From Limnomonas spitsbergensis (Eukaryota; Chlorophyta; Chlorophyceae; Chlamydomonadales), in assembly GCA_037349105.1 (NCBI GenBank), contig JAYJMM010000083.1, forward strand, positions 1,364,001 to 1,428,000: a DNA stretch of 64,000 nucleotides, in the 5' to 3' direction. The position numbers and the translations under genes were made by a program. Positions 1,201 to 64,000 of the stretch are shown in pieces (the stretch's first letter is position 1; every line of letters starts with the position of its first letter). The notes beneath the pieces were generated by a model, which did not search any database, had not been told where the DNA came from, and worked only from the letters and a program-made list of their open reading frames with translations.

Positions 1201-1233
1201 CATGGAGTACCTGGCACCCATCACCTGACTGCA

Positions 1234-2205
1234 ATGGCTGCAGTATTAGGGAGTTTTCGAGATGACTTTGCTAAAAAGGGGTCTAAAAATTTTCCAGACG
1301 GGTTCCAGGGGAGATCCAGAGTCCCTGCCCCGATTTCCAAGTTAGATACACTGGTTGCGTTTTCAGTAGCTGAGAGTGACTCGCGCCGATCCCGCATAGT
1401 TGGGGATCCATTTGTGGACAGGGGGGCAGCTTCTGCTTCACGTTTTCAGACTGAAGTTCCGACCACGTTGCTTACGCACGGTCCAGGTTCTCGCTGGTCT
1501 GAGGTTAGGGTTCCGACGAACCAACGGCAGGGGGTGAATGAACCTACTATATTATCTTCTGACGTTTCTCTATCAGAGACTTCACAACACCTACTATTCG
1601 ATCGATCTATTTCTCATCGTGCGACTGTTGCATCTGTACCAGCGCCTGAATCATTCCTGGTGAGCAATCTGCCTGAACCTGACCCTGTGCGTATGAGTGC
1701 CCTCATTGCTAACGCTTCGGACATTTGTGCCTATTTTCGCTCTCTTACAGGCTCATTGTTTTACTTTGCAAACCCCGAAGAGGCGCCAGGTGAGCAAGTT
1801 GGCTTGATCTATAATGGCGGCCCGAAACAATTGCCTGATAGGGCCATGTTAGATTTTGGATCGAATTGCCATTTGATCACCGACAGGGAGGCGCACCGCC
1901 TAGGCATACCTGTTCTTCCATACCCCATGAAGCTCGCCACTAGTGGTGGTGTTGACACGATTAGGGGCATTACACCTATTATCAAGATTTCTTATGGGTC
2001 AGGGTCGGCGGAGCTTACCAGTGAGCATTGTTTTCTTGTCATTGCCTGGGCTCCGTCGCATTCGTTTACTGCACTGTTCGGGAATCCTGATAGCATACAT
2101 TTCAGAGCGATTCATGATGTTGCCAGAGGGATCCTCACATTCAGGCCAAACTGGTCTTCAGATGTTCTTGAGCTGCCAGTATCGACTGTGAGATCTGATA
2201 ACTAG
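1234..2205 (+). CDS. Retroviral-type aspartic protease ORF
   Basis: The start is the ATG at 1234, but the frame is already open from the TGA at 1198 and is the same as that of Gag. The first 190 or so residues are Ser/Arg-rich and unrecognised. A pepsin-like retroviral protease core follows: the loop MLDFGSNCHLIT at about 1846-1881 has Asp-Phe-Gly-Ser in place of Asp-Ser/Thr-Gly-Ala/Ser, followed by beta-rich sequence and a glycine-containing AFxGNPD-like segment near the end. The family processes Gag and Pol polyproteins. Phe after the catalytic Asp is unusual. The ORF ends in TAG at 2203 and the frame closes. Confidence 0.65.
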   Translation: MAAVLGSFRDDFAKKGSKNFPDGFQGRSRVPAPISKLDTLVAFSVAESDSRRSRIVGDPFVDRGAASASRFQTEVPTTLLTHGPGSRWSEVRVPTNQRQGVNEPTILSSDVSLSETSQHLLFDRSISHRATVASVPAPESFLVSNLPEPDPVRMSALIANASDICAYFRSLTGSLFYFANPEEAPGEQVGLIYNGGPKQLPDRAMLDFGSNCHLITDREAHRLGIPVLPYPMKLATSGGVDTIRGITPIIKISYGSGSAELTSEHCFLVIAWAPSHSFTALFGNPDSIHFRAIHDVARGILTFRPNWSSDVLELPVSTVRSDN

Positions 2206-2251
2206 ATTTCTACAGCACTTTTCAACTCTGCACGATTGCATCGTGAAGAGT

Positions 2252-2265
2252 TGGGGGGGGGAAGT
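2252..2265 (+). promoter_or_regulatory. Internal G-rich polypurine tract 1
   Basis: A run of G followed by AAG, directly after the protease ORF. It resembles the tract at 12,230 that precedes the presumed 3' LTR and the one at 4,239. Its position before an accessory ORF rather than an LTR suggests either an internal plus-strand priming site or a transcript element. Confidence 0.35.
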
Positions 2266-2329
2266 GTGCTGCTGATTGTGATGACACTGTATTACATCTC
2301 TTCACATCACTCAATCTGCTTCCCTCCTC

Positions 2330-2477
2330 CTCACTGCTGCAGATCTACTCCTTCAAGTGAGTACCAGTCTTCAAACTGCACTACCCCCTGATTACGGTGT
2401 AGTGGACTCTGTTAGTATCAGTAGTTAGTAATTGCTTGTATAATGCTGAGCACCTTGGTGCCTGTCATTTTGCGCAG
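2330..2477 (+). promoter_or_regulatory. Putative mini-exon and splice cassette A ahead of the first accessory ORF
   Basis: A pyrimidine-rich stretch ending CTGCTGCAG (acceptor-like, AG at 2341-2342) is followed by 14 bases (2343-2356) and then GTGAGTACC (donor-like, GT at 2357). Downstream are TTACGGTGTAGT, ATTGCTTG and a second acceptor-like TTTGCGCAG ending at 2477, exactly before the ATG at 2478. The same arrangement recurs at 3,300-3,400. I infer a splicing cassette for making a subgenomic mRNA; no transcript evidence is available here. Confidence 0.45.
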
Positions 2478-3266
2478 ATGGCTATTCCGCCGCCTCGAGT
2501 TAGGCCTATGATAAGAACTTGGCTTGGGGAACAACACCCCATAGCAGTACCGCGAGAATACTCGCGTACTTTGCACTGCTGGAGCAACGAGCTCCACGGT
2601 ATTGATTGGCCGACATTACACAATCATCGGACCGTAAATCAATTTAATCAGCTAGAAAAGCTGCCGCGTCGCCGCTGGTGGGACAGTCTCACTCCTGATG
2701 AGGCCACCGAGCATCTCCTTAAATATGCTCAGCGGACCACCAGAGCAGCCAATACTGTGACAGAGGAAATGAACTTTATCGCAGCAGATATAGAACTCCT
2801 CTGTACTGTATATAGAACACCTGCATTGCTGTACGCACTAGGAGCTGGCATCCATGGATTGGATGCAGTTTCGTGGAATGGGCCATGGGATGAGCCCAAC
2901 TGGAGCCTCCATAGATGCGGCTTTGGAGTGCTGCAATGCGACAACTCTTACCCAGATGCGTTGCACTTTGTAGAGCAGCATTACATTATAGAGGGAAGGC
3001 AGCAGGTCAGGGCCAAGTGTATGATTCTCAGAGACTTCTGGATTCTGTATCAGCATCAGCGGTTCAGACTGGCTGAATGGGCAAGGTCTCTGATAGGATT
3101 CTCAGCACCTGAGTTTCCATTAGGCGCAGCTGGAGCGATGTTGTGGCTCGGCAGACCTCTAAACATCTTCAGGGAGAATGGAGTTCGGCACGGCCCATCA
3201 GCGCCCATCCCTCTTATTCCTGGAGACGTCGTGTTTGGTCCTGAGCCTGCGCCTGCCGCACTATAG
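2478..3266 (+). CDS. Accessory ORF 1 of element 1, unrecognised
   Basis: I chose the ATG at 2478 because it directly follows an acceptor-like TTTGCGCAG; the frame is open further upstream. The product is about 262 residues, rich in Trp, Arg and His, without a clear transmembrane segment or zinc motif. I do not recognise the family. It lies between protease and RT, in a different frame from the protease, and is preceded by a splice-like cassette. That suggests expression from a separate, possibly spliced, mRNA rather than as part of Pol. Confidence 0.55.
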   Translation: MAIPPPRVRPMIRTWLGEQHPIAVPREYSRTLHCWSNELHGIDWPTLHNHRTVNQFNQLEKLPRRRWWDSLTPDEATEHLLKYAQRTTRAANTVTEEMNFIAADIELLCTVYRTPALLYALGAGIHGLDAVSWNGPWDEPNWSLHRCGFGVLQCDNSYPDALHFVEQHYIIEGRQQVRAKCMILRDFWILYQHQRFRLAEWARSLIGFSAPEFPLGAAGAMLWLGRPLNIFRENGVRHGPSAPIPLIPGDVVFGPEPAPAAL

Positions 3267-3299
3267 GTAATTGAACTGATAAATTAACTCGTGTCTTTC

Positions 3300-3494
3300 A
3301 ATTAATGCTTGCGCAGATCCAAGTACTTCAAGTGAGTACTTCTGCGATCAACTAACATCGATCAACCACCGTCTGAATACGGTGTAGTTAATTGCTTGAC
3401 ATCAGCAGTTGTTTTGTCATGAAGTCCTTCTCATGCCAGAATAGCTTCTGGTGTAAATCTAGACTCTCGTAGATTTAGACATGCTTCACAATTG
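3300..3494 (+). promoter_or_regulatory. Putative mini-exon and splice cassette B ahead of the second accessory ORF
   Basis: Acceptor-like CTTGCGCAG (AG at 3315-3316), a 15-base exon-like piece (3317-3331) ending CTTCAA, then donor-like GTGAGTAC (GT at 3332). AATACGGTGTAGT and ATTGCTTG follow. Cassette A has the same parts in the same order, with divergent bases between them. Confidence 0.45.
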
Positions 3495-4157
3495 ATGTCT
3501 GGAAAGGCTTACCGCCTGGAATATATTGGGAGTTCAGCTGTCGCTTGCATGTTCAGAATTCCTGGCATGGGTGACACTGAACTTAGTATTGAGGATGCTA
3601 GTGCACTGTACCCCTCTGCAGCGATAGCAGCAGATAAACCTGTTAGCAAATCCTTAGCGCAGTACCGCTTTGATGTAATCAAAGAGGTCATTAGGTTGCA
3701 GGATTACAGACTGTTGACCAGTATCACACAGCTAAAAGATGCTAGGGATGAACTTGACCAGGATTCGGATGCGTCTGAAGACCTCACGGTCAACATAATC
3801 TCTGAATTAAGGTTGACCTGCGAGAGTGCAAAATTAGACATCATCAGTCATCAGCTACTGTTTGATTGGTACAAATACATTGCTATGTCTGAGTTTGAAT
3901 ACCCTTTGCCTAGAGCATTTGATATTGCTTGGGAAACTGAGGCAAGCCTTAAATGGCAATACCGCCCAACAGTAGAACCCTTATCTGATGATGATGAAAT
4001 TCTATTGAATAAATGTGACTTACATGTGTACAAAGAAAGACCTGCTGATGTGCAGCAACCTGATGGCACATTTGATGTGCCAGTAAAATTCATCATATCT
4101 CCCTGGGTGTTTGGGGTTGGTCCCTCAAATAGACCAATCCCAACTCAATTGTCTTAA
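3495..4157 (+). CDS. Accessory ORF 2 of element 1, unrecognised
   Basis: Starts at the ATG at 3495 (MSGKAYRLEY...), 220 residues, acidic in the middle and C-terminal part. No zinc motif, membrane segment or catalytic signature is visible, and I do not recognise the family. It is in the same frame as accessory ORF 1 but separated from it by a spacer holding splice cassette B. Function unknown. Confidence 0.5.
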   Translation: MSGKAYRLEYIGSSAVACMFRIPGMGDTELSIEDASALYPSAAIAADKPVSKSLAQYRFDVIKEVIRLQDYRLLTSITQLKDARDELDQDSDASEDLTVNIISELRLTCESAKLDIISHQLLFDWYKYIAMSEFEYPLPRAFDIAWETEASLKWQYRPTVEPLSDDDEILLNKCDLHVYKERPADVQQPDGTFDVPVKFIISPWVFGVGPSNRPIPTQLS

Positions 4158-4320
4158 CATTTTTTTTTATGATGGGACACTGTCCAGCACTCATCTTACC
4201 TAAACTAACAAGTCACTCCTTTCAGCAATGACTGTTAGTGGGGGGGGAAGGTTGTCATGAAGTGCTGTTCATTATCCAATGATGTGATAACTAATTATTA
4301 ATTACTTATCACACCTTCAG
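4158..4320 (+). promoter_or_regulatory. Spacer with second internal polypurine tract and acceptor-like site
   Basis: Contains CTCCTTTCAG (about 4216-4225), a G-tract followed by AAGGTTGT at about 4239-4254, and a pyrimidine-containing stretch ending CACCTTCAG exactly before the ATG at 4321. GGGAAGGTTGT closely matches the GGGAAAGGTTGT before the presumed 3' LTR. Confidence 0.4.
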
Positions 4321-5208
4321 ATGCCCAGAAAGCCCAGCGCCAACAATGACGCCCGCGATGCCGAGCAGCGGGCCAGCGATAAGGCCGTAATCAACGACGG
4401 TTACAAGATGATTAACGCATCCGCACGGATGTTCTTGAAGGAGCGATCAGCAGCCATCGCACGGATAGAAGACAGGCGTCGTCAAGCCGCGCTTTTAACT
4501 AAGCGCAAGGCAACTGGCGGCGCCTCTGGCTCCAACCCTGGCCGTGGTGAAAACCTGGCCGGCGGAAGGAGCCAGACTGAAGGGCTGATGCAATCGCCTC
4601 AGGGCATGCATGGGGCCCGGACGTCCGGTGGTGATGAGGCACCTCCTCTAGTGAGGGCGCCCAAGCCACCGCTCAGCACAGAGGAGCGGAAGCAGCGCAA
4701 GGAGCGCAAACAGCAGAGGAGGCAACAGAAAAGGGAAGCAGAGCTGAACCGTGATTTGGATCAGCACAACCAGCTGCGCCCCATTCCTGAAGCTGCGGGC
4801 GAGTCCGGACTTGACCGCATGGACCTCGATGATCAGGCGGCGGAAACCTCAGAGCTTGCCGCCGCTCCATCCAGCGGTGGTGGATCCGCAAGGCAGCTGC
4901 GCAGTGCAGCAAGGTTCTTCGTCCCTACAACATCTATTGAGGGCGCATACCGGTACGATGGACGAGGCACGCCATCCTACCGCGAGGAGATTAAGACTAG
5001 CCTCACGCCTACTATGATGGCGCAGCTCACCATCCTCGTTCGTAGAAATGACTACGAGCAGGTACGTGAGTGGTGGAAGGTGTACGGTGCCAACTGTGTG
5101 TTCCGCAAGCGCAAGGACAAAACCGACATCTTGGCAGATATAGCAGTGTTTGCTGCTGAGGTTGCAGAGGTGACTGTTCAGGAGATTCTGGGCAGCCCTA
5201 ACTCCTGA
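4321..5208 (+). CDS. Accessory ORF 3 of element 1: basic, low-complexity protein, unrecognised
   Basis: The ATG at 4321 directly follows an acceptor-like CACCTTCAG. The product is 295 residues. Residues about 1-60 are charged and helical; about 115-140 form a highly basic run (ERKQRKERKQQRRQQKREAE) that could be a nuclear localisation or nucleic-acid-binding segment; a Ser/Gly/Ala linker follows; residues about 205-290 form a more ordered C-terminal domain with WWKVYGANC. No known family recognised. It ends in TGA at 5206, after which the same frame is open for another 100 codons. Confidence 0.5.
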   Translation: MPRKPSANNDARDAEQRASDKAVINDGYKMINASARMFLKERSAAIARIEDRRRQAALLTKRKATGGASGSNPGRGENLAGGRSQTEGLMQSPQGMHGARTSGGDEAPPLVRAPKPPLSTEERKQRKERKQQRRQQKREAELNRDLDQHNQLRPIPEAAGESGLDRMDLDDQAAETSELAAAPSSGGGSARQLRSAARFFVPTTSIEGAYRYDGRGTPSYREEIKTSLTPTMMAQLTILVRRNDYEQVREWWKVYGANCVFRKRKDKTDILADIAVFAAEVAEVTVQEILGSPNS

Positions 5209-5511
5209 AGTGTTGCGCAGGCTAGGAAGTGCAGTTTAGAGGCTCTCATCAGAAGGCGTCATCCTGATTTTCGACCTGCGCATCCCCTCAGGGGCTCTGC
5301 TTTTGTTGTTCCTTTGCAGAGTTTGGGTAACAAGCCTAGGCTGCGTCGTGCTAGAGCTAGGGAACTTGCTCAGTTGCGCGCCAAGCGTATTGCTATTCTT
5401 ATTGAGTTCTGGGCCAAGAGAGTCAGGAGATCTCGCAGGGTACAGAGGATTGCTGATGACAAGCTCAAGGCTGAACTGCTTAGGTCTGACAGGTTACGCG
5501 TTTTGACTTAG
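5209..5511 (+). CDS. In-frame basic extension after accessory ORF 3 (possible readthrough product)
   Basis: Frame-continuous with accessory ORF 3 across the single TGA at 5206; it has no in-frame ATG. It encodes about 100 residues, strongly Arg/Lys-rich, with runs such as RLRRARARELAQLRAKR. It ends in TAG at 5509, and the RT frame is open from there. It could be a readthrough C-terminus, an exon joined through the TTGCGCAG acceptor-like site at 5213-5220 or the CCTTTGCAG site near 5320, or a relic. Bias toward basic residues argues it was coding. Confidence 0.4.
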   Translation, partial: SVAQARKCSLEALIRRRHPDFRPAHPLRGSAFVVPLQSLGNKPRLRRARARELAQLRAKRIAILIEFWAKRVRRSRRVQRIADDKLKAELLRSDRLRVLT

Positions 5512-5583
5512 AAAATTGATGTCTGTAAATCTGTGCGGTGCCCTGGTCCTGCTATCACTCACAGAACGCAGCATCTCCTCAGA

Positions 5584-7629
5584 ATGCAACCCACCATAAT
5601 GAAATGGATCTTCTATCTCTGGCTGATAGTCACAGCATTTATGTTCACACCTGTTAACAGTATGAGAACTCACAATGCCCCAGCTCAGGTTTTTGACTTA
5701 ACTCGCAGCATCGCACGAGACCAGTATTCAAGAGAAGTATTAGGATCTTCACTGATCACGCAGACAGGTATCTCTTACTCAGCAGATATTCAACATTACT
5801 CAGATCCAGCGTTGCTGAATGACCTGTTGTCACCTGATGAGCTGCACGAGGGAGTCCCTATTGAGGGATCTTGGTCTTTAGATAATATGACACCTGATAG
5901 TCCAGCAGATCCTGTAGAACCTGATAAACATTTCAATTTGGAACAAGGTTGGACCCTGGGCAATCATGCTGATATTAGTGAGATTGAGAGGCAGCAGTTC
6001 CAGGATGAACTAGGAGATATTATCCAGGCACAAAGCGCTTATAAATTGTCTGACTTGACAGGTTATGAAGGATCAGTTCTTCCCTTCACCATAGGTCCCC
6101 CTGGAGAGACTATAACTTTGCCCCCAGGTATTATTCTCAGAAAGGCTCGCAGGAGGTCGCCCATGGAGAAAGAAGTTATGGACGAACACATGACCCCTCT
6201 CATGGAAGCTGGATTTATCAGTGAGTGTCCTCGGCCCCTTATGATACATGAAGCAGTTATAGCTGCCAAGAAGGATCCCGTGACTGGCGCATGGACTGAT
6301 AAAAGATGCTGTATTAATTATGGTAAAGCATCTGGAGGCATTAATGCCTTTACACCTCCCGACGTGTACCCTTTACCCTTGCCTGAAGAATTGTTTGGAA
6401 GGACTGAAGGTTGTACTGTGTTCTCTGTTTGTGATATGAAATCAGGTTTCGGTCAAACTTCACTGTCTGAAGAATGCAGGGACATGACTGCGTTCTGGTG
6501 GAATGATCGGTGTTGGAAGACTAACCGAAATACCTTTGGCCTTACTAATATGCCTGCATACTTCCAGAGAGTCATGAATACTGTAATAACTGAAGCAGGC
6601 CTTGATCACTGTTGTGTATGTTTTATAGATGATATCCTGGTCTTTACCAAAGATCTTGCATCACACAAAGCTGCACTTAAACTCTTGTTTGCTGCCCTCA
6701 AGAATTGTCATATGAAGGTGCATCCAGGAAAATGCAAGTTTCTGTTTAACAGCCTGGAGTACTTGGGCCATATGATTGGAACCACAGGTATTTCACCTAG
6801 TAAAACCAAGGTCTTGGCAATCAGGGCTTTACCCACGCCCACTACTGTGCATGAACTGCGTCGTGTCATTGGTTTTGCTAATTATTACCGATGTTATGTT
6901 CCTAACTTTTCTGTCATCTCCAGCCCCCTTACAGAGTTGTTTAAGAAGGACACTCCTTGGCTGTGGACAGCTGAGAGAGATAAGGCATGGGAACACCTAA
7001 AAGATGAACTCTGCAAACCTGGTAACGCATTGCGCACACCTAATAAAAATCGCCGTTACATCCTTCACACCGATTGGTCCCAGAAAGGCATGTCAGCTGT
7101 TCTGGGTCAGAAGGATGATGATGGGAAGGAATATCTAGTAGCCTGCATTAGCAGGACTTGCAACGTGCATGAGGCTAATTATGGGTCTTACAAGGGTGAA
7201 ATGTTAGCCGCAGTATGGGGAGTGCGAGCCTTCCGCTATTATCTGCTTGGGGCTAAAATACCATTTCTAATAATAAGCGATCATAAAGGATTGTCTTGGT
7301 TAATGTCTAATAAAGAGTTAGAGGGGCAGTATGCTCGCTGGTCTGTTATGCTTTCGCCATTCTCATATGAGCTTGAATACAAACCAGGTGTTAAACATAT
7401 TGTTGCCGATGTCCCCAGCAGGTTCCCTGTTCAGTCAGATCTGGACTGGACAGGCACAAAGGAGAGTCACTTCGCAACAACGTGGCCCTTTTACTACAAC
7501 TCAGCATTCTGTGGATCAGGTGTAGACACTGATTTGACTGCTAATAGTTCTAAAAGAGCGTATTCCCTTATGGCTGCTTGTTTGTCAAGAACGCCCCAGA
7601 GTGCAGTCCCGTGGGGATTTGCCATATAA
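5584..7629 (+). CDS. Reverse transcriptase / RNase H polyprotein with N-terminal hydrophobic leader
   Basis: Starts at ATG 5584 (or 5599) and encodes about 681 residues. Residues 6-24 (MKWIFYLWLIVTAFMFTPV) look like a signal peptide or membrane anchor, which is odd for Pol. RT covers about residues 195-430, with FIDD catalytic aspartates at 6628-6633 (residues 349-350) and the palm strand FSVCDMKSGF upstream. RNase H follows, with catalytic residues D497 (YILHTDWS), E539 (KGEMLAAV), D566 (IISDHKG) and D609 (VADVPSRFP). The enzyme converts element RNA to DNA. Catalytic residues are present, so it may be active. The frame ends in TAA at 7627 but stays open to about 7834 beyond it. Confidence 0.9.
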   Translation: MQPTIMKWIFYLWLIVTAFMFTPVNSMRTHNAPAQVFDLTRSIARDQYSREVLGSSLITQTGISYSADIQHYSDPALLNDLLSPDELHEGVPIEGSWSLDNMTPDSPADPVEPDKHFNLEQGWTLGNHADISEIERQQFQDELGDIIQAQSAYKLSDLTGYEGSVLPFTIGPPGETITLPPGIILRKARRRSPMEKEVMDEHMTPLMEAGFISECPRPLMIHEAVIAAKKDPVTGAWTDKRCCINYGKASGGINAFTPPDVYPLPLPEELFGRTEGCTVFSVCDMKSGFGQTSLSEECRDMTAFWWNDRCWKTNRNTFGLTNMPAYFQRVMNTVITEAGLDHCCVCFIDDILVFTKDLASHKAALKLLFAALKNCHMKVHPGKCKFLFNSLEYLGHMIGTTGISPSKTKVLAIRALPTPTTVHELRRVIGFANYYRCYVPNFSVISSPLTELFKKDTPWLWTAERDKAWEHLKDELCKPGNALRTPNKNRRYILHTDWSQKGMSAVLGQKDDDGKEYLVACISRTCNVHEANYGSYKGEMLAAVWGVRAFRYYLLGAKIPFLIISDHKGLSWLMSNKELEGQYARWSVMLSPFSYELEYKPGVKHIVADVPSRFPVQSDLDWTGTKESHFATTWPFYYNSAFCGSGVDTDLTANSSKRAYSLMAACLSRTPQSAVPWGFAI

Positions 7630-7772
7630 CCTTTTGGTCCTGCAATTGATCCTGATCCAGTTCCTGATAAGGAGCAAGCTGTTTCTGGATTACAAATGAT
7701 TTCTGAGGATGCTGAAGTGTCTTTTCCTTTACCTACCGAGTGGCCAGGCCTACCTAGAACGGGCGAGCTATT
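7630..7772 (+). other. Linker between RNase H and methyltransferase with apparent frame change
   Basis: After the TAA at 7627 the RT frame continues open (PFGPAIDPDPVP... type sequence, Pro/Glu-rich). Around 7768-7775, at CTATTTTG, coding character moves to the next frame (-1 or +2), which runs into the methyltransferase. This could be a programmed -1 frameshift plus stop bypass, or ordinary decay. Confidence 0.4.
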
Positions 7773-8741
7773 TTGCCTTCTCCCACCTTCGGTCCATCTG
7801 TTACAAACCACATTCATTCGTTGGCTACTAGACTGATGCTTCCTGATGATATGGATGATATGAGTTGCTGTAATGCATTTGATACTGCAGCTGCTTTTGA
7901 TTTCGAAATTAATGGCATTTCTTCATTTTCCACTCGCATTCGTGTGCCGCAGATGGACACGCTGTCGGAAAAACAGAAAGCCTTAAGGGGAACAGCTTCT
8001 TCAAGAGTTGAAGATTGTCGCCTGCATTTGCAGGAATTGCCTCCTTCCCACTATACTTCACTGCAGGTGCAAGAACAGTCAAAAGAAGGCAATCCTACTG
8101 GAAAAGGGATTCGGTCAATAAATTCTACACCTGTTCCTCAAACCAGCATTCTTACTGCTATGCAGGAAGGTGTGTCACTAATTGAGCTGTTTGGTGGTAT
8201 GTGCGGAGGATTAGAATGCATGCTGAAAAATGGCATCCGCATCAACCACTATTACTATGCTGACATTGATAATGGCGCAAGGGTTTGTGCCAAACACAGA
8301 CTTAAATTGCTCATGGAGGAATATCCCAATCTTTTGAGTCATGATGCTGTTACTAACACATTCAACCGGCTGCCGCAGGATGTGTACGAAATTAATGAAA
8401 GACATCTCATTGACATTGGATGCCTTGATGGTACCCAATGGATGCTAACAGCAGGGTTTATGTGCACTGACCTGTCTTCTGCAGGGAAACGTACAGGATT
8501 ACAAGGAGAGAAAAGTTCCACATTTTTCCCTCTTATTAAAATTCTAGGATCTCTGCAGCATATGCAACAAGGGAGACGGCCACCCATGTACTTCATTGAG
8601 AATGTTGCTGTACAATTTGCTATTGCAAAATCGCAGGCTATGACAGAGGGATTCCAGGAACTTACAGAGAGGCTGGGACACCCAGTTTGCTTTGACGCAG
8701 TTGCTGTAGGCAGCTATGCCCACCGGCTGCGTAACTATTGA
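7773..8741 (+). CDS. DNMT3-like cytosine-5 DNA methyltransferase, N-terminal and catalytic part
   Basis: The listed start is where the frame becomes open with a TTG; no confident ATG. After about 125 unrecognised residues come C5-methyltransferase motifs: I, IELFGGMCGGLE (about 8181-8216, SAM binding); IV, GFMCTDLSSAGKRTG with the catalytic Cys codon at 8463-8465; VI, FIENV (8592-8606); VIII, AHRLRNY just before the stop. C-x-D-L-S in motif IV and AHRxRNYW in VIII resemble DNMT3 (PCNDLS; AHRARYFWGN) more than DNMT1. Met replaces the usual Pro before Cys. TGA at 8739 sits exactly where the related element 2 copy has Trp, so this is a single Trp-to-stop change or a readthrough site. Confidence 0.85.
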   Translation: MPSPTFGPSVTNHIHSLATRLMLPDDMDDMSCCNAFDTAAAFDFEINGISSFSTRIRVPQMDTLSEKQKALRGTASSRVEDCRLHLQELPPSHYTSLQVQEQSKEGNPTGKGIRSINSTPVPQTSILTAMQEGVSLIELFGGMCGGLECMLKNGIRINHYYYADIDNGARVCAKHRLKLLMEEYPNLLSHDAVTNTFNRLPQDVYEINERHLIDIGCLDGTQWMLTAGFMCTDLSSAGKRTGLQGEKSSTFFPLIKILGSLQHMQQGRRPPMYFIENVAVQFAIAKSQAMTEGFQELTERLGHPVCFDAVAVGSYAHRLRNY

Positions 8742-11700
8742 CAAAATATATGTTCCCCCGCTTCTTTGCAGTTGGTTATGATGTCCTTCGTCCGTGATGA
8801 TACATTGCGCCTAACTGACATATTGGACCATGGAAGAAGTCCCCGTACCTGTTTCAAAGTTAACAGGTACCCATATCATCCAGCCAATGTATTGAACGAA
8901 CCTCTACGAGTTTTTCCTACAATGGTTGCTAGGATTGAATCTTATGCGTTCCGTCCTAACCCTGAATATGAACCTGGACTTGTTTTGGAAACTGATCAAG
9001 CAGGAATTATCACTAGACACGCTCTGACTATTCATGAGCGTGAACGCGCCATGGGATATGCGACTGACTGTACTGCTGGCAAAGACCTGATCTTTTCTGT
9101 GTGTCACAGGATTGTTGGAGGTGCTTTTGATGCAAATGCTGTCAGTCACCTACTTGCTGTTGGACTTGCGGTTCGATTTGCAGATGTTCCGCCTTCGCAG
9201 GAAATTTTTTCTGCTTTCAATAACTTTCTCCCTCATTCCTTTGCCATTTCAGGCCTGGAGCTGGGGGGAGATGGTGATCAGATATCTCAGCAGCTTAATC
9301 ATTTATTTGCTGCTGGAGATTCCCTGATCTTACATGCAGCTCAGTCCTTAGCGGCTGAGTTCATAGAGCAACCCATGACTCGTGAGGAAGAGTCTCATTC
9401 ATTTGCAGATATCTGGCTGGATAATAATGCTATGCAATATTTGAGGCGTACCACTGACACAATGTTTCCCATGCTGACCCCTGTAGAACGCAAGCGTCTT
9501 CAACGACGAGCTGCGCTCTATCTCTGGTCTGCTGAAAAGAGTATTCTATATCGACGAATGCCAGGCGGTACAACCAAGGTGGTACCACCCCCTGGTGACC
9601 GGTTGGCACTCGTTCACAAAATGCATGTAGAAAATGGTCATTATGGTAGGCGCCGCACGACGGGGCTTGTCATGATGACCCACTGGTGGGTTGGTTTATA
9701 TAACGACTGCAAAAGAGTGGTCCAGTGCTGCGAGGCCTGCGATTACACTAAAGTATCGTTTAATGCTATGCAGCCTGTTATGCATCCCTTACCCATCAGA
9801 GGACTTATGTACCGATGGCACCTGGATCTTTCTGGTCCTTATACGGCTTCTAACCGTGGCCACACCTATGTTATGGTAGCTGTAGAAAGCTACTCTAAAT
9901 GGGTTGAGGTATTTCCCATGACTGCTAAATCATCTAAAGAAGTAGCTTACCATTTCCTGCACGGCATATTGGCACGATTTGGGGCATGCGCTGAAGTTGT
10001 CACAGACGGTGGTGGGGAGTTTCAAGGTGAAATGGACTCGCTGCTTGTCCGTGCCATGATTGATCATAGAGTCACCAGTTCTTTCCATCCCCAAGCCAAT
10101 GGGCAAGCGGAAAGGCTAGTGAAGACAGTAAAAACTGCATTATCAAGGCACTTGCACGTTTCAAGAGAGCCTCGAGAATGGGACATGTATTTACCCTGGA
10201 TAGCACTCGGGTACCGAGTCACAAAGCATGCCAGCACCTTGATGAGTCCCTACCAGCTGCTGTTTTCCTGTGAACCAGTCATCCCTCCCGCTATCATGGA
10301 AAGGTTGAATGGGGATCAGACAGTGGATTACCTGGATGTGGATTCTGCTGCTGAACTTGTACTGTCCCGTTCTGAATTGCTAGCCAAGAACTGCGTGATG
10401 GTCGGCCAGAATCTTCTGGTTGCTCAACAGCGAAATACCCTGCGTTACGCAAGGCTTCGTAGTGGAGGTTACCTCCCATCAATAGCTAAGTATACTGAGG
10501 GGCAGTTTGTGTATGTGCGGGATGAGAACCGGCTGCACTCCACTGCAAGACCTTATGTGCTTCGGGTGTTTGATGTACGGCAAAGTGGAGTCATTATCCT
10601 GGTTGGTCGCAATGGGGTGACTGTGGCTGAGAACGCTATTAACTGCGCACCATGTCATCTGCCCATAGAGGGACTCTTACCCCCATCCAAAAGATGGCAA
10701 AAGCCAGCACCTGACTTCCCTTGCCAGAGATGTCTGCTGCCTGATAATGCTAAGAAAATGATTCTGTGTGGCAGTTGTGGTCGAGGCACTCACACGTATT
10801 GTTTGGTACCACGGCTTACTACTGTCCCTGCTGGTTACTGGATTTGTGAGCAATGTAGGACTGCTGGAGCTGACGCTACTGGTGCTGCAAGACGTGATGT
10901 TGCGGCGGAACTGGAGGAACCAGCGGCCGCCGTGACAGGTTACCAGCTGCGGCCTGCTAAGCAAAAGAAGGCAGGAAGGGTGATGGGAGCCGCCAATGGC
11001 GGTGGCCTTGTTGAGGATGAAGGAGAAGGACCCGCTGAAGACAGGGAAGATGACGCAGATTGTCTTGCCGGGACCGCCGCAGGCGGTGCCGGAAGCAATG
11101 CGATTGAGCTTGGCGGGACCGGCGCAGTTGTCAGCAAGGAGGAAATCGCTGAGGAGGCGCAACCTGATGATCAGCGCCCTACCCGTGCATCCGTGAGAAT
11201 CCGCGTCCCCAACAAGAGGTTCGAAAGCCATGTCACTCATCCTTGGGTGCCCCCAGATTTCATCAACTGGGGTGTCCGCGGAGATGCGGTGGAAGCTCTC
11301 AAGTCCTTAATGCCTGGAGTGTGGCGAGAGCGCGATGAGGCTGCGGTCTACTTGGGCAACAGGGTGCCGGGAGGATGGTCGTACCAACTCCACCCTCCTT
11401 CACCTCTCACCATTGAAGACAGCGACTGCAACACCCTGCTGGACTGCCTTGACCTATCCCTGTCCCCCAGCATTCTTTTGCTGTTCAAGGATAATGGGCA
11501 AGCCACCGGGCTTCTGCAGAACAGCCAGCTTTACCCTTACCCTCGATCCCTCCATGTTCTTACCAATTCGGGCATCGGTGTCAACGTCCCTGCAGACTAC
11601 TGTGCTGATTCGCTGCAACCCTCCACCTACGAGTTTCTGCTGCGACAGCATGGGCTGCACGTTCTTATCACAAACCCTCCGGCTGAATACGCTGATATCT

Positions 11701-11753
11701 CCTGTGCTCTTGCGGTCAAGGCAAGTACGCACGGCACGTTGCATGCTGCTTAG
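8742..11753 (+). CDS. Methyltransferase C-terminus, integrase, PHD finger and C-terminal domain
   Basis: Same frame as the preceding ORF across one TGA; the first ATG after the stop is 8778. Order: methyltransferase motifs IX-X (ERERAMGYATDCTA about 9036-9077, GGAFDANAVSHLL about 9117-9155); integrase H2C2 zinc domain (about 9616-9750, HxxxH...CCEAC); integrase core with Asp in HLDLSGPY (near 9827), Asp in VVTDGGGEF (near 10003) and Glu in ANGQAERL (near 10115); PHD finger at 10722-10856 (Cys4-His-Cys3); Ala/Gly-rich linker; about 190-residue C-terminal domain, unrecognised. It would methylate DNA and insert the cDNA. The PHD may guide insertion to histone marks, as chromodomains do in chromoviruses (inference). 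Confidence 0.88.
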   Translation, partial: QNICSPASLQLVMMSFVRDDTLRLTDILDHGRSPRTCFKVNRYPYHPANVLNEPLRVFPTMVARIESYAFRPNPEYEPGLVLETDQAGIITRHALTIHERERAMGYATDCTAGKDLIFSVCHRIVGGAFDANAVSHLLAVGLAVRFADVPPSQEIFSAFNNFLPHSFAISGLELGGDGDQISQQLNHLFAAGDSLILHAAQSLAAEFIEQPMTREEESHSFADIWLDNNAMQYLRRTTDTMFPMLTPVERKRLQRRAALYLWSAEKSILYRRMPGGTTKVVPPPGDRLALVHKMHVENGHYGRRRTTGLVMMTHWWVGLYNDCKRVVQCCEACDYTKVSFNAMQPVMHPLPIRGLMYRWHLDLSGPYTASNRGHTYVMVAVESYSKWVEVFPMTAKSSKEVAYHFLHGILARFGACAEVVTDGGGEFQGEMDSLLVRAMIDHRVTSSFHPQANGQAERLVKTVKTALSRHLHVSREPREWDMYLPWIALGYRVTKHASTLMSPYQLLFSCEPVIPPAIMERLNGDQTVDYLDVDSAAELVLSRSELLAKNCVMVGQNLLVAQQRNTLRYARLRSGGYLPSIAKYTEGQFVYVRDENRLHSTARPYVLRVFDVRQSGVIILVGRNGVTVAENAINCAPCHLPIEGLLPPSKRWQKPAPDFPCQRCLLPDNAKKMILCGSCGRGTHTYCLVPRLTTVPAGYWICEQCRTAGADATGAARRDVAAELEEPAAAVTGYQLRPAKQKKAGRVMGAANGGGLVEDEGEGPAEDREDDADCLAGTAAGGAGSNAIELGGTGAVVSKEEIAEEAQPDDQRPTRASVRIRVPNKRFESHVTHPWVPPDFINWGVRGDAVEALKSLMPGVWRERDEAAVYLGNRVPGGWSYQLHPPSPLTIEDSDCNTLLDCLDLSLSPSILLLFKDNGQATGLLQNSQLYPYPRSLHVLTNSGIGVNVPADYCADSLQPSTYEFLLRQHGLHVLITNPPAEYADISCALAVKASTHGTLHAA

Positions 11754-12229
11754 TTTCCCAAGAATTTTAACGTGCCATCCAGCAAGGTTTGAGTGGTTGT
11801 CCCAGCTACGCCGAGAAAGGCGGCTAGTGATCCTGCAGTCTGTCAGCTTCACAGCAGGCCTGGGAGCTAACCGGTCCATTCACGGCTGTTGCAGTAATAA
11901 AGTGTGGATCCTCGTGTTTGCAACCGCAGCTATTCGGGCAAGGATGGTCCCACCAATGCACACGTTTATCCGTTAACTCTTAAGTGTACTGCTTTCTAAT
12001 GACAAGATATGACTGAACTTTCTTCGTTTGATTTGACAATTGACTGTGTATCTGAACGGGATTTTCACTGGATCTGGGGGGGGGGGGGTTCTGGAACATA
12101 GATTTGAATTTAGGAATTGAATTTGGTGCTGAGATTGGTGAGCCAAAGCTGGAACTGGATGACTATGAATATTTGACTGAGAATATTTGATTTCAAACAA
12201 AAAAAAATTGTGTGCAGTTTTCAATATCT
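11754..12229 (+). other. 3' untranslated region of element 1
   Basis: No convincing ORF. Contains a long pure G run at about 12,078-12,091 and an A-run at about 12,200. An overlapping ORF in another frame to 11,976 looks like a shadow of the C-terminal domain. Confidence 0.5.
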
Positions 12230-12243
12230 GGGGGGGGGAAAGG
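12230..12243 (+). promoter_or_regulatory. Polypurine tract of element 1
   Basis: A G run followed by AAAGG, immediately before TGTTGTGCATAATACGC, which has the TG start expected of an LTR. This is the usual priming site for plus-strand DNA synthesis. Confidence 0.6.
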
Positions 12244-12244
12244 T

Positions 12245-12560
12245 TGTTGTGCATAATACGCACTTTTAGGGTTTAGGAGGTGTCTACCGTGAGGTGGCAT
12301 TCTCATATGTCTGGCGCGAGCCTATAGGCATCCTCGATCAGGTGTTAGTTAGGTGATCGGGAAGTTTGAGATGGTGTGGATTGGGAAACCAATTGCACTA
12401 GAGCAGGGCTGATGTAGTCTTCTGGACTTGGGGTCGATTGGGCCCTGGGGGAAGGTGAACAGTACCGATGGTGACGAGAACTGGGCTCTTCAGCTTGAAG
12501 AGGGTCCCTTAAAGCGACTGTGGCGAGTTACGGTAATGCGTAAAAGTCACAGCTAACGTA
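12245..12560 (+). repeat. Probable 3' LTR of element 1 (end uncertain)
   Basis: Begins TGTTGTGCATAATACGCAC right after the polypurine tract. The end is not defined: candidates ending in CA occur near 12,550-12,565 (GTACGCA), but the 5' LTR is outside the window so no alignment is possible. Sequence beyond about 12,580 belongs to the decayed 3' part of element 2. Confidence 0.4.
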
Positions 12561-12745
12561 CGCATTATATCGGAGGTTATTTTTCCTACCGGTACTTGTG
12601 CCCCATGGACTCTGGGCAGGGCCCAGGGGTGGGAAGTCTGAATGTCTTGTGTTCTTTTCGCTTGGTGCACCCATTCCTTAGGGTGCACCTCTGTGCCGCG
12701 ACAATGCGACCACTTGGGCCATGCTGCCCTTGTCCAGAGTGTCAT

Positions 12746-13724: not shown

Positions 13725-15670
13725 CTACCTGCCTCCCGCTCTCCTCCCCCTGACCACTGGCTCGTGGGTGGCTGCATCCAGCCTAGCCCCCGTGCGATCA
13801 GCTGAGGAGGGGAGCGGCGACCTGGACGGTATGTCCGCATTCTGGTGGCATGCTCCTGAGCGGTGGACCATGGTAATGTCCAGCTCTTGGAGCATGAGAG
13901 GCTCATTGAGAGCCCACCGAGCGTGCTGGCCCACCAACGTCTGGTTGTCCATGAGGTAGGTGAGCGGCTCATGGTCAGTGATGAGGTGCACCTTGCACCC
14001 AAAAAACATGTGGCTGTACGTGCGCGCTGCATACACTGCAGCCAGCATCTCCCCCTGGAACGAGGAATAGTTCCTCTCGCTCTTGTTCAGGGATCTGGAT
14101 GTGCATGCTACCATATATTCCGCCCACTGTCATCACACTGCCCTAGCACGGCGCCAATGCCATGCTTACAGAAGTCAATGTACAGCAAGAAAGGCCTTGG
14201 CGGCCCTCGGCCATCCGGCCTTGTCCCACTGTAATCCGGCATGCGTAGGACTCTACCGCCCTCGCACATCTCCGTTTTGATCAGGTGGAACGCCTGCGAC
14301 TGCTCTGGCCCCCACACAAACGGGACCCCCTTGACCAGCAATGCATTGATACATGCCGCCTTTTTCGAGAAATCCGGTATGTAGCACCGGTAGAAGTTCA
14401 AGAATCCCATGACTTCCTGGATGTTTTTCACCGTTGCTGGCTCAGGCAACGCCATAACTGCCGCTATCTTAGCCGCATGCGGCGTGAGCCCCTGGGCCGA
14501 CACATTGTGACCCAGCCAGGTACTCCACCGTCGCACACCCAAACAGGGACTTGTCGGGGCGTGCTCTCTATCCTACACTGTGGAGCATGTCCAACATCAA
14601 TTCCACATGTCTGATGTGTTCTGCTGGCGTATCGTTGTACACTAGCAGATCATCAATGAATGCCACGAAAAAGCACTCAGGCCTGCCCTGGCAATCTCTT
14701 CTTCCATCATACGCTGGAAGAAAGGAGGCCCATTACGCAGCCCAAAGTTGAGCTTGGTGTACATCCAAAGCTCAGGACCCATCCAAAAAGCTGTCTTAGG
14801 CTGGTCCTCAGCCTTGATAGGGATTTGCATGAACCCCGACCTGAGATCCACCTTGCTGAAGATCTTGGCCATCCCCAGGTTTTGAAAAATAGTCTCCATT
14901 CTGGGGATGGCGAACTCCTGCTTAGCCGTACGCAGGTTCAACCTGCGCATATCGTGCGCTATACGGTGGTCAGTCCACTCGCCCGTCTCAGCACTCTTTT
15001 TGGCTGCTACCACCGAGTTGGCTGCAAACTTGATAGGCCCCCCCTGGGGTACCTTGACGATGATACCTGCCTGTATCATCGGCTGGCACTTTTCCTTAAA
15101 GATGGCCGCCTTAGGAGGCGGCATGTCCTTGGACTTCTGAAAGCACGAGCTGACCTCGTCTTCCAAAGCCAGCGTAAACTCACCTTGCGTGCCGCAGTAG
15201 CCGGGTAGATCCTCCATTGAGTAAGCGAATGCTCCTTGGCGGTCCCTGAGGCTCTGCTCAAGGCTCTCTTGCTTCTCCGCAGTGAAGTCAGGGTGCTGGC
15301 CCAGCAGCCACCCCTCCTTTGTTTTGACGTACTCCGAGGGGGGTTCCACCACCACCCCCGGCTGGAACATGTCTATCATCTCCGCCGCCTGCGGGTCGTC
15401 CTCCGCGGGCGGTGATTCCTCGCCAGTGTTGTTGTTGCGTCGCCAGTCCTCATGCTGGCTATAGGCGCCCCCAGCCCTGCTGGCACCCCCCATAGGAATG
15501 ACAGCCGGCGGGCGCAGCCAGCCAGATGTAAGCTTTGTTGCTGCTTCCCGTCTGGACATAAATGCCCCCTGGCTCGCTGTGAACCCTCCACCTCGTACTC
15601 CTTGCCCGGTGGCTCGCGCATCCGGGACACACACTGACAGCAGGAGCCACACCAGTACCAGCTTGAGCAT
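13725..15670 (-). pseudogene. RT / RNase H of element 2 with N-terminal hydrophobic leader (frameshifted)
   Basis: ORF 15,670-14,642 starts MLKLVLVWLLLSVCVPDA, a signal-peptide-like segment as in element 1, then an RT N-terminal half with VDLRSGF and LNFGLRNGPPFFQRMM. A frameshift near 14,670 precedes FIDDLLVY (about 14,645-14,663). RT connection and RNase H continue in 14,542-14,108 and 14,114-13,725: IDFCKHGIGAVLG, FQGEMLAAVYAART, LITDHEPLTYL, NADIPSRSP supply the four acidic residues. The sequence is diverged from element 1 but co-linear. Frame breaks make it a pseudogene unless some are sequence errors. Upstream, near 15,910-15,960, lies a basic KKSKKARRRAR stretch reminiscent of the basic ORF before element 1's RT. 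Confidence 0.85.
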
Positions 15671-15993
15671 CCCTGTGAGGATCCCCTTGAATGCTGTACA
15701 AGTGAGGAGTCATCTGCATGCTGACGGCTGCTGTGCAGTCTCCTGCGGCTGGTGTGCTGTGGGCTGCGCTACCTGTGGATATGCAGCCGGCTCTGGCCTC
15801 TGCTGCTCTCTGGCCCATGTTATCTCCAGGTTCACCTGGCTGATCGTGGCCGGCGGTACTGGGCAATCCACTCCTGGCCTGCTGCCGCGGTCCCTGTCCG
15901 CGGCCTTCCTCTGCGCCTACCTTGCACGACGCCTAGCCTTCTTTGACTTCTTTCCCTGCAGCTCGGCCGTTTCAGCCCAGGCTGCTTCGGCCC

Positions 15994-16369
15994 CTACTGG
16001 CCGCTCCCTTGTGCTTTGTCCCTTGCGGCCTTTTGCCTGCTGCCCCTGCATGTGAGCGGGGCGCGGCGCTTCCCCGCTGCCGCCTGCGCGTGCGGACCCT
16101 TCTGGTCATGCGCACTGCCTCCTGTCCCTCCTAGCGTTGGCCAGCTGCATAGCATGATAGTCCCTACCGCTGGCATGCGCTGGGTTGCGCCAATGTTCCA
16201 GCCAGCCATTAATTGGCCTGCCCTGGCCAGGCTTGACCCCGTCTGCATACGCTTGTGCCAGCATGCTCCCAAAAGTCATCGCAGACGACGGGCCCATGCA
16301 AGGATCTGCGTGCGCTGGACAGCATACATTGATCCTTGCATGGGCCCGTCGTCTGCGATCCTGTACCAT
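15994..16369 (-). pseudogene. Broken accessory ORF remnant next to a perfect palindrome
   Basis: Two - strand frames (16,369-16,106 and 16,272-15,994) carry plausible coding pieces such as GSMLAQAYADGVKPGQGRP, separated from the zinc-knuckle ORF above by the 29-bp inverted repeat at 16,278-16,359. I do not recognise the protein. The palindrome seems to have disrupted the original frame. Confidence 0.35.
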
Positions 16370-17740
16370 TCCCTGATCCGCAGAGGCTGCCTGCCCTTAG
16401 CCTTAGCCACGGCCGCTTCCTTCTCCCAACGTGTCTCCCTGGCGTGCTGCACTTCACCTGGCAGGTCCAGACCTTGGACTGCCCGTAACACTACAGCCCT
16501 TTCGCTAGGCAGGTCCTCTTCCCAGGCGCAATACCATTTGCAGCCTTCCGCTGCGTCCGCAGCCAACTGCCGTTTCCTGATGATACCCAAGGGCATATCC
16601 CCCTCTGGACACTCCTTGGCCCGATGGCCTCTCTGGGAACAAATGAGGCACCTGCCTCCCAGCCCCTCAGGAACTGGGCATGCAGGGAAATCATGCCCCA
16701 TCTTGCCGCATCTCAGGCACGGCTCCCCAGTAGCCGAGCCATGGCCCCAGGCTGGCGGCGCCATGTCGCTGCACCTGTAGCAAGCCCATTCTCCTCTGCG
16801 GCTGCCGCCGATGCCCTTTGTGCCTGCGCACACCTCACAGGCGGCAAAACGGCACATGCAGCACCTTCTGCTGGTCCCTTCCGCAGTGTCTAAGCTGTTC
16901 ATAGCACTGCTGAGGCGCGATTGCGACACTCGGGCACCGCGGCTCCTTGTTGCTAGCCTTGTTGCCCCTGCGGTCTAGCTCTCCGCTGTCCCCGCTGTAG
17001 CTGTTTTGGCTGCCCGCCTCTATGGCTGCGCCTCCAGCCCGGCCCTCTGGCCTGGGCGGATGCAGCACTGGCGCCTGGCTGATGCAGCTGCCCGCCAGCT
17101 GTTGGGTGATGACTCCCTCAGATTCCCTTTTTCTGAGGGCTGCCATTCTGACAACTAACTCCTCTTGCAGATCTTCCAGCGCCTGGTTGTACCCGCCCAT
17201 CCATGGGTCCGGATCGGGCTCTGGCAGCGTCCTCAGTCTGAACAACAGGCTGGACTCGACCATGACCGTGCTGCTGGTGCCCAATTCCTGGTCTGCCCCC
17301 TGCAGGCCCATGTCTTCCTTTCTCTGCTCATCCAGCTGGTCCACAAAGCTCCTCAGTGTTGCCGTCCAGCGCCCAGTGCTGTACATTGCTGGGTCACCCC
17401 AGGGTTCCCTTGCCCATGCCGGCACCGGCGTGCTGGGCTGGGCACTTCCTGGGCTGCCACTGCCTGCCCCACAGGCCGCTGTGTCTCCTGAAGCTGAGGT
17501 TTGCGGAGCCGCTGCCTGTCGCAGGTTCACCCTTACTGCGGACTGGCGCGCCCCATGCTCAAGCTCCCTTTCGAGGCTGCGTCTCCTCTCCTCGAGGGCG
17601 GCCTTCTCCCAATTTCCCTTGCTCATCCATTCCTGTTGCATCTGTTCCATGGCCTCCTCGAGGCTCCGCCCTGGACTCCTTGGTCCTGGGCCCGTGGCGG
17701 CTGGCTCCTCCATCCTGTCTGCATCCCGGGCCTCTGCCAT
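16276..17740 (-). pseudogene. Accessory ORF of element 2 with Cys-rich finger and two zinc knuckles
   Basis: ORF 17,740-16,835 (MAEARDADRMEEP..., acidic and Gln-rich, with an EEAMEQMQQEW helix) runs by a frameshift near 16,880 into 16,929-16,276. The second part has a Cys-rich segment (CCMCRFAACEVCAG...CYRC, about 16,780-16,865) and then two CCHC knuckles, CLRCGKMGHDFPAC and CLICSQRGHRAKEC (about 16,635-16,730). The pattern is that of a nucleic-acid-binding Gag nucleocapsid, yet a separate Gag lies at 29,641-31,127. I infer a second Gag-like or RNA-binding accessory protein. Confidence 0.6.
16278..16359. repeat. Perfect 29-bp inverted repeat with 24-base loop
   Basis: Arms 16,278-16,306 and 16,331-16,359 are exact reverse complements (ATCGCAGACGACGGGCCC... 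and its complement). It lies within accessory coding sequence of element 2. Confidence 0.9.
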
Positions 17741-21151: not shown

Positions 21152-22438
21152 GTGAGATACCTCAACTCCGGTCGATACAAGTCCTTCGTCGCGGTCCTTA
21201 CGCCTCACGAGCTAAGCCCAGACGACAGTGAGGTCGACCTTGATAGGGTACCAAACCAACCCAGTGGAGAACCAGTCGATGCCCAGCCATGCAAACTTGA
21301 CGTGAACATGGACCATGTGCACCCAGCCATGCAAACTGAAATGTGCAACGTAATTGACAGTTTTGCAGACATTTTCAGTGAAACTCCTCAAGCCGGTGGA
21401 GCTAATATCCCACCCCTCGAGCACACAATCGATCTTGTCCCCGGTGCGAAGCCCCCTTTCCGAAGGAACTGTCGCCTTTCTCCCAGTGAAATGATCGAGC
21501 TCAAGTCACAAGTTACCGAACTCCTAGCGAAGGGAATCATCACCCCTATCAATTCTCCATACGGAGCTCCAGTCCTCTTTGTCAAGAAACCAAGCGGTGG
21601 CTTCAGGTTTTGCCTTGATTACCGAGCCCTCAATGAAATAACTCTCAAGCTCCGCTATCCGCTACCGCGCATTGATGACCTGCTGGATGCAGCCCGCGGT
21701 GCCACTTGTTACTCCAGCCTTGACATGGCAGGTGGCTTTCACCAGCTGCTGATTTCCGAGGAAGACGTGCCTAAAACCGCGTTCGCGACACCATTCGGTC
21801 ACTATGCATGGCGATGTCTGCCTATGGGACTTTCCAACGCGCCCAGCCAGTACCAGAGTACAGTTAACAAGATCTTCCAGTCCCTGTCCTTCGTGCTGAT
21901 TTACATCGATGACATCCTCATCCTGTTGCAATCCACAGCAGAACATCTAGACCACTTGAACCAGGTGTTTACGAAGATTCGTGAAGCCGGGCTGCAAGTG
22001 CGCTTTTCGAAGTGCAGATTTTTACAAGAACAAGTCAAGTACCTAGGCCACATTCTTTCCAAAGAGGGAGTGCGCGCAGACCCAGAAAAACTTCGTACCC
22101 TGACCGAGTGGGAATTCCCAACCAATGCCACAGGCATACTCCAATTCTTGGGACTTGCGAATAATTTTCGCAAATTCGTACCTAACCTATCGCGACTAGC
22201 AGCTCCCCTGCACCAGCTCACCAGGAAAAAAGTACAATTCACCAAGAGCGAAGATGCCATCCTAGCATTTGAAGCCATCAAGGAGGCGTTAGCTTCACCT
22301 CCAGTCCTAGCGTACCCGAATCCAGACTTGCCCTACGAACTAGTATCTGACGCATCCATGAGGTTGCGGTGCAGTACTCACCCAGCAGGGCCGACCAGTC
22401 GCGTACTTCTCCTCCAAGTTCAGCCCAGCCGAGCATAA
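21152..22438 (+). pseudogene. Chromovirus Pol, part 1: reverse transcriptase
   Basis: About 428 residues, open before the first ATG. RT begins around LEHTIDLVPGAKPPFRR, with FCLDYRALNEIT, SSLDMAGGFHQL, LPMGLSNAPSQYQ and catalytic YIDD at about 21,902-21,913. The RNase H start SDASM near 22,345 is followed by a frameshift at about 22,362; true RNase H (CGAVLTQQGRPVAYF) continues in the next frame. The last 25 residues of this frame are out of phase. Confidence 0.85.

Positions 22439-49539: not shown

Positions 49540-64000
<14,461 letters not shown>

Follow-up and report, generated by a model that had tools for sequence, protein, structure and literature searches.

What is a DNA methyltransferase doing inside the polyprotein of a retroelement? 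The question is raised by a 64,000-nucleotide stretch of the genome of the green snow alga Limnomonas spitsbergensis (Chlorophyta, Chlamydomonadales; GenBank assembly GCA_037349105.1, contig JAYJMM010000083.1, positions 1,364,001 to 1,428,000 of the forward strand), referred to here as the window, whose own numbering is used unless noted otherwise. A C5-cytosine methyltransferase (MTase) domain is encoded at positions 8154-9180 (+), within the Ty3/Gypsy-type pol of an element designated E1, with RNase H on one side and the integrase on the other. Judged by its sequence, this domain is of DNMT3 type and a regular part of Pol. In the reading that we favour, to which we give a probability of roughly 55%, the MTase belongs to the Pol of a Ty3/Gypsy-type lineage and would methylate the element's own new cDNA, while a PHD finger would tether the integrase complex, such that copies are born methylated.

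Identity and placement of the methyltransferase domain

The pol region of E1 contains the following features, the MTase motifs being read in the sequence:

5533-7629 (+): reverse transcriptase (RT, ~6400-6777; PF00078, 4e-21) and RNase H (~6964-7362; PF17917, 6.4e-28)
8190 onwards (+): MTase motif I, FGGM (FGGMCGGLE)
8460 onwards (+): motif IV, MCTDLS (MCTDLSSAG), with the Cys codon at 8463-8465
8598-8606 (+): motif VI, ENV
8718-8738 (+): motif VIII, AHRLR (AHRLRNY)
8739-8741 (+): in-frame TGA in place of the Trp of AHRxRNYW; of the 49 relatives with a letter in this column, 48 have Trp
9036 onwards (+): motif IX-like ERERAMGYATD
near 9180 (+): motif X-like end
9588-9752 (+): integrase H2C2 zinc finger (PF17921, 3.4e-10)
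9810-10088 (+): integrase rve core (PF00665, 1.7e-8)
10722-10856 (+): PHD finger, C-terminal to the integrase (PF00628, 8.5e-9; nearest PDB entries KMT2D, KAT6A and BAZ2B)

An initial annotation, made from the letters alone, had quoted six MTase motifs, FGGMCGGLE, MCTDLSSAG, ENV, AHRLRNY, ERERAMGYATD and an X-like segment, and had placed them between RNase H and integrase; all are found, in a single frame, and the placement is borne out by RT and RNase H at 5533-7629 and by H2C2 and rve at 9588-10088. The domain is likewise present in the stretch to which it was assigned, but the open reading frame (ORF) at 7773-8741 covers only its N-terminal part, ending at the TGA at 8739-8741.

The window MTase matches PF00145 with 30.6 bits (E = 3e-7), passing the curated threshold of 22. 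In a search of the PDB with a profile built from eight relatives of the window MTase, matches were found to DNMT3A (2.2e-15), 4onj (1.3e-10; 'DNA methyltransferase' in its listed title, and presumably tobacco DRM), M.HhaI (~1e-6) and DNMT2 (E ~0.009). DNMT3A/B are the nearest known enzymes both by profile and by predicted fold, the fold being that of the relative P0053 and not of the window copy, and the motif order of the family is unpermuted, unlike that of DRM. Profile, fold of a relative and motif order thus agree with the DNMT3-like identity first proposed, and the domain search (PF00145; DNMT3A in the PDB), named in advance as a possible refutation, leaves the segment inside the C5-MTases. 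PHROG matches of the MTase are to families named 'DNA methyltransferase' only, and all 50 among the VIA-align matches listed are C5-MTases, by which nothing is excluded. A 101-row MTase tree includes, as reference sequences, a partial DNMT3A and two from bacteria, which meet on long branches, and contains no DNMT1, DRM or CMT rows.

With mammalian DNMT3A and DNMT3B the family shares the motif order, C-x-D-L-S, AHRxRxxWxN and the predicted fold of a relative. It differs from them in the mostly replaced Pro-Cys of motif IV, in ~18-26% identity over structural matches, and in that no ADD or PWWP domain was found in cis, a PHD finger lying past the integrase instead.

Copies and relatives

Two distantly related families of such elements, A (to which E1 belongs) and B, are present in the L. 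spitsbergensis genome. In a genome search with the family A MTase, 107 of 959 candidates were scored and counts are therefore lower bounds: at least 94 matches, the window included and some of them fragments, are 85-100% identical, while four further scored matches lie at 68-75% and nine, from a related family, at 56%. Thirteen of the 107 lie inside stop-free pol frames of 2,243-2,253 amino acids. For family B, the best-ranked 113 of 1,066 candidates were scored, the unscored rest being expected to be poorer; these 113 copies are 96-100% identical with no stop within the matched MTase, and 30 of them lie in open frames of more than 5,000 amino acids. One family B copy (C40) has a single 5,291-amino-acid frame that runs from gag through RT, RNase H, MTase and integrase to the PHD finger, with two CCHC knuckles in gag, one of them under the Pfam cut-off. 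Across both families there are more than 200 copies or fragments in one genome, and from their sequences the families are real, selected and abundant, and appear to be recently active.

These numbers bear on the alternative that the MTase is a chance insertion, or a recent capture of a host MTase, in the window copy only. The initial annotation had set out a one-copy insertion as a possible refutation, and the domain is present across a multi-copy family; no point was found in favour of this alternative, and with the at least 94 family A matches at 85-100% identity, the 113 scored family B copies and relatives in Chlamydomonas eustigma against it, we rejected it as having a negligible probability.

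A protein search with the window MTase part returned 50 matches, 49 of which have Pfam domains of RT, RNase H or integrase, the remaining one carrying PF13975, which we take to be a retroviral-type protease. The best match, and six in all, are from C. eustigma; most others have jgi, ena or lgn sources and are probably from metagenomes, and one relative is labelled jgi/Chrzof1, presumably Chromochloris zofingiensis. Further protein searches gave 15 matches (nine of them family relatives) and 61 matches (some repeats, the last few outside the MTase). When one viral-contig collection was scanned once with the MTase profile, a single relative, the C5-MTase of a phage-like contig, was found in 22 candidate stretches; this does not exclude a viral source.

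Gene order was analyzed in the 43 of 120 proteins (119 from databases and one family A pol) in which RT-RNase H, MTase and integrase were each at least 80% covered. All 43 have the order RT, MTase, integrase and the D, D and E of the integrase, and 42 have a PHD-like pattern after the integrase, the exception (P0025) still having a PHD domain entry. One pol (P0115) contains RT and integrase and lacks the MTase; the relatives were gathered by MTase queries, so that the share of Gypsy pols without an MTase cannot be read from this set. Pairwise distances of MTase, RT and integrase correlate equally with one another (Mantel r 0.76-0.79, p 0.001), which shows that the MTase has travelled with pol. 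The nearest solved relatives of the PHD fingers include CHD4, KMT2D, KDM5, UHRF1/2 and AIRE, several of which read unmodified H3K4.

Other features were observed in some of the relatives. A G-patch domain is present in P0014, P0025 and P0041, directly after the MTase in P0014. The divergent relative P0061 has, by eye, RT-like sequence after the MTase, with no Pfam RT listed. Of the 16 pols whose N-terminal region is long, 13 have a strongly hydrophobic, membrane-like segment of 19 residues ahead of RT; in E1 it lies at about 5593-5650, family A falling just below the threshold used.

Selection, terminal repeats and integration

The ratio of nonsynonymous to synonymous substitution rates (dN/dS) was calculated for 24 MTase sequences, comprising E1, 19 copies picked as stop-free and four fetched otherwise. 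Among the 276 pairs, 206 have dS of 0.03-1, and their median dN/dS is 0.11; choosing stop-free copies biases toward constraint, but a silent-site excess remains, and the MTase sequence is, on this comparison, under purifying selection. In the pair L011 and L014, dN/dS is 0.09 for the MTase, 0.02 for RT, 0.03 for the integrase, 0.10 for the PHD finger and 0.24 for the C-terminal tail.

Both families have split direct repeats in the arrangement A1-coding-B1-A2-B2, and a pair of whole identical long terminal repeats (LTRs) was not found. The repeats are ~727 and 62 bp long in the family A copy C41, and 634 and 233 bp in the family B copy C40. Elements start with TGTCAC and end with GCGACA, giving TG..CA ends, and the B1-A2 joint reads GCGACA-GC-TGTCAC in the four copies read, from which we infer an intermediate whose two ends are joined across a 2-bp spacer. 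Both ends could be located in five of the seven copies tried, and all five have perfect 4-bp target duplications (AAGT, CTAC, TGTC, CCCA and ACAG); the other two (C3 and C120) have no 3' end within the stretch examined. Among the nine family A and B ORFs scanned, rve is present and no DIRS tyrosine recombinase (PF00589) was found at E <=0.1. Together, the RT-RNase H-DDE integrase order, the TG..CA ends and the 4-bp duplications suggest that a DDE integrase pastes an element with DIRS-like repeats. Within each of the five copies compared, the two long repeats are 99.7-100% identical: these inserts are young.

The 'LTR retroelement' of the initial annotation needs a correction: the pol is of Ty3/Gypsy type, and the first 20 kb of the window contain no LTR pair, the copy being 5'-truncated outside the window and ending at 12703.

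Related methyltransferase-bearing elements

Retroelements bearing DNMTs were described by de Mendoza et al. (2018; PMC5890265) in dinoflagellates and in the charophyte Klebsormidium, in keeping with the statement in the initial annotation that methyltransferase-carrying retroelements had been reported from a small number of other lineages of algae and protists. The closest likeness is to KnitGypsy-Dnmt3 of Klebsormidium nitens, which has a DNMT3-like domain within a Gypsy-type Pol ORF, Gypsy domains combined with DIRS-like A-coding-B-A-B repeats, and a DNMT under purifying selection (Ka/Ks < 0.2 there; PMC5890265). By contrast, the present elements are from chlorophytes, have more than 200 matches in one genome, and include, in family B, a single 5,291-amino-acid frame (C40); set beside the description of KnitGypsy-Dnmt3, they have a PHD-like finger in 42 of 43 pols and a mostly replaced motif IV Pro, and their 4-bp target duplications and TG..CA ends have been read. 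Families A and B are thus a variant of the known DNMT3-bearing Gypsy kind, distinguished by their active-site motif, which is unusual, by the PHD finger that Pol also carries, by the giant family B polyprotein and by the hybrid character of repeats and integration. The resemblance to KnitGypsy-Dnmt3 is one of architecture, as read from the sequences, and does not imply common descent; no Klebsormidium-named sequence occurs among the protein-database matches to the MTase family.

SymbioDIRS-Dnmt3 of Symbiodinium likewise encodes a DNMT3-like domain as part of Pol, is present in many copies and has direct repeats that are split; its isolated domains carry out de novo CG methylation in yeast (PMC5890265). 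It encodes a tyrosine recombinase (PMC5890265), whereas the present elements have a DDE integrase and 4-bp target duplications.

In the literature searched, with most subscription journals outside it, we found no description of DNMT3 elements in chlorophytes. A 2025 survey cites DNMT-bearing retroelements from streptophytes and dinoflagellates (PMC12344493), a 2023 transcriptome survey reports no DNMT3 in its green algae (PMC9998398), and one sentence of a review lists DAM- or DCM-encoding retrotransposons for several groups, including green algae (PMC6338049). The word 'methyltransferase' is absent from the main text of the L. spitsbergensis genome paper (PMC11228838).

The window itself contains an ordinary Gypsy-type element for comparison:

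21152-23822 (+): RT, partial RNase H and integrase, with no MTase match between RT and integrase

Ordinary Ty3/Gypsy elements have RT, RNase H, H2C2 and rve in the same order as families A and B. They also have TG..CA ends and short target duplications, with terminal repeats that are whole and not split.

CpG depletion and possible action in trans

Ratios of observed to expected CpG are 0.54-0.59 in the elements, 0.56-0.68 in all 12 tubulin loci, including two that overlap, and 0.28-0.65 in all 7 random stretches. Because depletion is just as strong at the tubulin loci and in the random stretches, it was dropped as a discriminator and rejected as a mark of element-specific methylation; a depletion so uniform suggests that CpG methylation is general in this genome. 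On the branches of E1 (12/353 vs 44/2729, p 0.03) and L011 (17/366 vs 58/2751, p 0.006), CpG transitions occur about twice as often as other C/G transitions, a modest excess that fits 5-methylcytosine; on two family B branches the changes are too few for the comparison.

Three other loci of the genome, L003 (G000:C93:388691-392236), L004 (G000:C14:271408-274935) and L002 (G000:C30:291933-295874), carry C5-MTase genes that, inspected by eye, do not look like the element MTases. L003 resembles L004, which has a weak HMG-box match. CpG is not depleted at these loci (1.05-1.15) and the GC content of L003 is 43%, which indicates that they may be foreign; they are perhaps giant-virus inserts.

This pattern bears on the possibility that the MTase acts in trans, on host chromatin at or near insertions or on invaders such as DNA viruses, with the genome-wide CpG depletion as its trace. 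Depletion in random stretches and tubulin loci, but not at the three foreign-looking MTase loci, is as this would predict; antiviral roles for retrotransposon-encoded methylases have been discussed (PMC6338049), and Symbiodinium has genome-wide CG methylation (PMC5890265). However, ordinary host DNMTs would produce equal depletion, and Klebsormidium carries such elements without an odd methylome (PMC5890265), and we consider action in trans unlikely.

Function of the methyltransferase

Self-methylation of cDNA is the likeliest function of the element MTase that we infer. As a domain of Pol, the MTase would be located on the newly made cDNA along with RT and integrase, where it could methylate cytosines, most likely in CpG, de novo in the manner of SymbioDIRS-Dnmt3, before or at integration. 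The PHD finger would tether the integrase complex to histone tails, and new copies, born methylated, would pass as host DNA. Early silencing of this kind may allow hundreds of long, near-identical copies to be tolerated.

Several observations weigh against this proposal. In addition to the loss of CpG depletion as a signal, the MTase dN/dS in the L011/L014 pair is above those of RT (0.02) and the integrase (0.03), and KnitGypsy-Dnmt3 gave no methylation in yeast, in a test that its authors call inconclusive (PMC5890265). The residue before the motif IV Cys is Glu in 62 of 103 scored sequences, Pro in 31, Met in 4, Ser in 4 and Ala in 2, and with the Pro replaced in most members MTase activity is not assured. 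The window copy has Met-Cys in place of the Pro-Cys of C5-MTases, and since one motif residue departs, the family is treated as a variant C5-MTase.

The replacement of the Pro in 72 of the 103 sequences (by Glu, Met, Ser or Ala) is also what would be expected if the chemistry had been lost or changed and the domain served as a nucleic-acid-binding or Pol assembly module, or bound cDNA or RNA to aid strand transfer or circle formation. DNMT3L serves DNMT3A as such a module, and the spot between RNase H and integrase would suit a DNA-binding linker. Yet the catalytic Cys (motif IV), the Glu of ENV/ENT (motif VI) and the Arg of HRxR (motif VIII) are kept in 50 of 50 rows with letters, of 51, the window copy included, and the FGG of the S-adenosylmethionine site in 47-48 of 48 rows of a conserved-column alignment, whereas a scaffold would not be expected to retain the catalytic Cys and Glu. 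We regard such a module as a possible, though distinctly less probable, alternative to self-methylation.

A DNMT2-like role in methylating RNA, for example the element RNA or a primer tRNA, is considerably more doubtful. C5-MTase folds can act on tRNA, as DNMT2 does. RNA methylation has also been raised for SymbioLINE-Dnmt (PMC5890265), but the profile of the present family is nearest DNMT3 (2.2e-15), with DNMT2 far weaker (E ~0.009), and by-eye reading found no obvious tRNA primer site after the 5' repeat.

The window copy and its surroundings

E1 is nested in an older element of family B, E2, and the features of the two outside the E1 pol are as follows:

1-12703 (+): element E1 of family A, truncated at the 5' side and extending leftwards out of the window to about G000:C83:1362269, from alignment to sister copies and the C41 terminal repeats
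1-1200 (+): E1 gag-like ORF, continuing left of the window, from the open frame, its position and a CxxC..H motif by eye
1234-2205 (+): E1 aspartic protease-like ORF (PF13650, E = 0.0011, under the curated cut-off)
2436-3266, 3492-4157 and 4321-5208 (+): three E1 accessory ORFs, open frames with positional counterparts in L013 (3894-6339)
12642-12703 (+): E1 62-bp terminal repeat B (family A), ending in GCGACA and identical in sequence to the B repeats of C41 and C90
12704-18838 (-): element E2 (family B), an old divergent copy, from Pfam and from blastn and tblastn against C40
12749-13509 (-): E2 MTase remnants
13728-14572 (-): E2 RNase H
14645-15709 (-): E2 RT
16279-16974 (-): E2 gag with a CCHC knuckle

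The gag-like ORF of E1 and its C41 counterpart have no Pfam match. Copies of family A have two or three accessory ORFs that separate the protease from pol; those of E1 (2436-5208) match no Pfam family above its cut-off, and between L013 and E1 two of them have dN/dS of 0.48 and 0.37, the third comparison having failed to align. The MTase frame of E1 differs from its RT-RNase H frame, and with this frame change and the in-frame TGA the copy is dead. E2 adjoins the 3' end of E1 at 12704, within the E2 MTase region, and restarts left of the truncated 5' end of E1, some of E2 being lost. The window contains no E2 integrase because the insertion of E1 leaves the integrase-PHD part of E2 to the left of E1, outside the window. 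Elsewhere in the window, a satellite array occupies 49541-63993 (period 45 bp, ~327 copies, GC ~72%, strong AT skew).

Implications

A wider and rather speculative possibility, which we think improbable as a whole, is that chlorophytes keep DNMT3-type enzymes in an old, still active Gypsy-type order that integrates in an end-to-end joined form, and that the Glu/Met-Cys site and the PHD finger allow these elements to self-write methylation, shaping the CpG regime of the host. The combination of a DDE integrase, split direct repeats and 4-bp duplications bears on the origin of DIRS-like repeat layouts. With more than 200 matches in one alga, active sites that occur naturally with Pro-Cys or with Glu-Cys, and a reader domain joined to the polyprotein that contains the writer, these families form a large natural data set that makes the reason for keeping a methyltransferase testable. 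Methylation is classically a weapon against transposons, and elements that encode and maintain a methyltransferase themselves invert this role.

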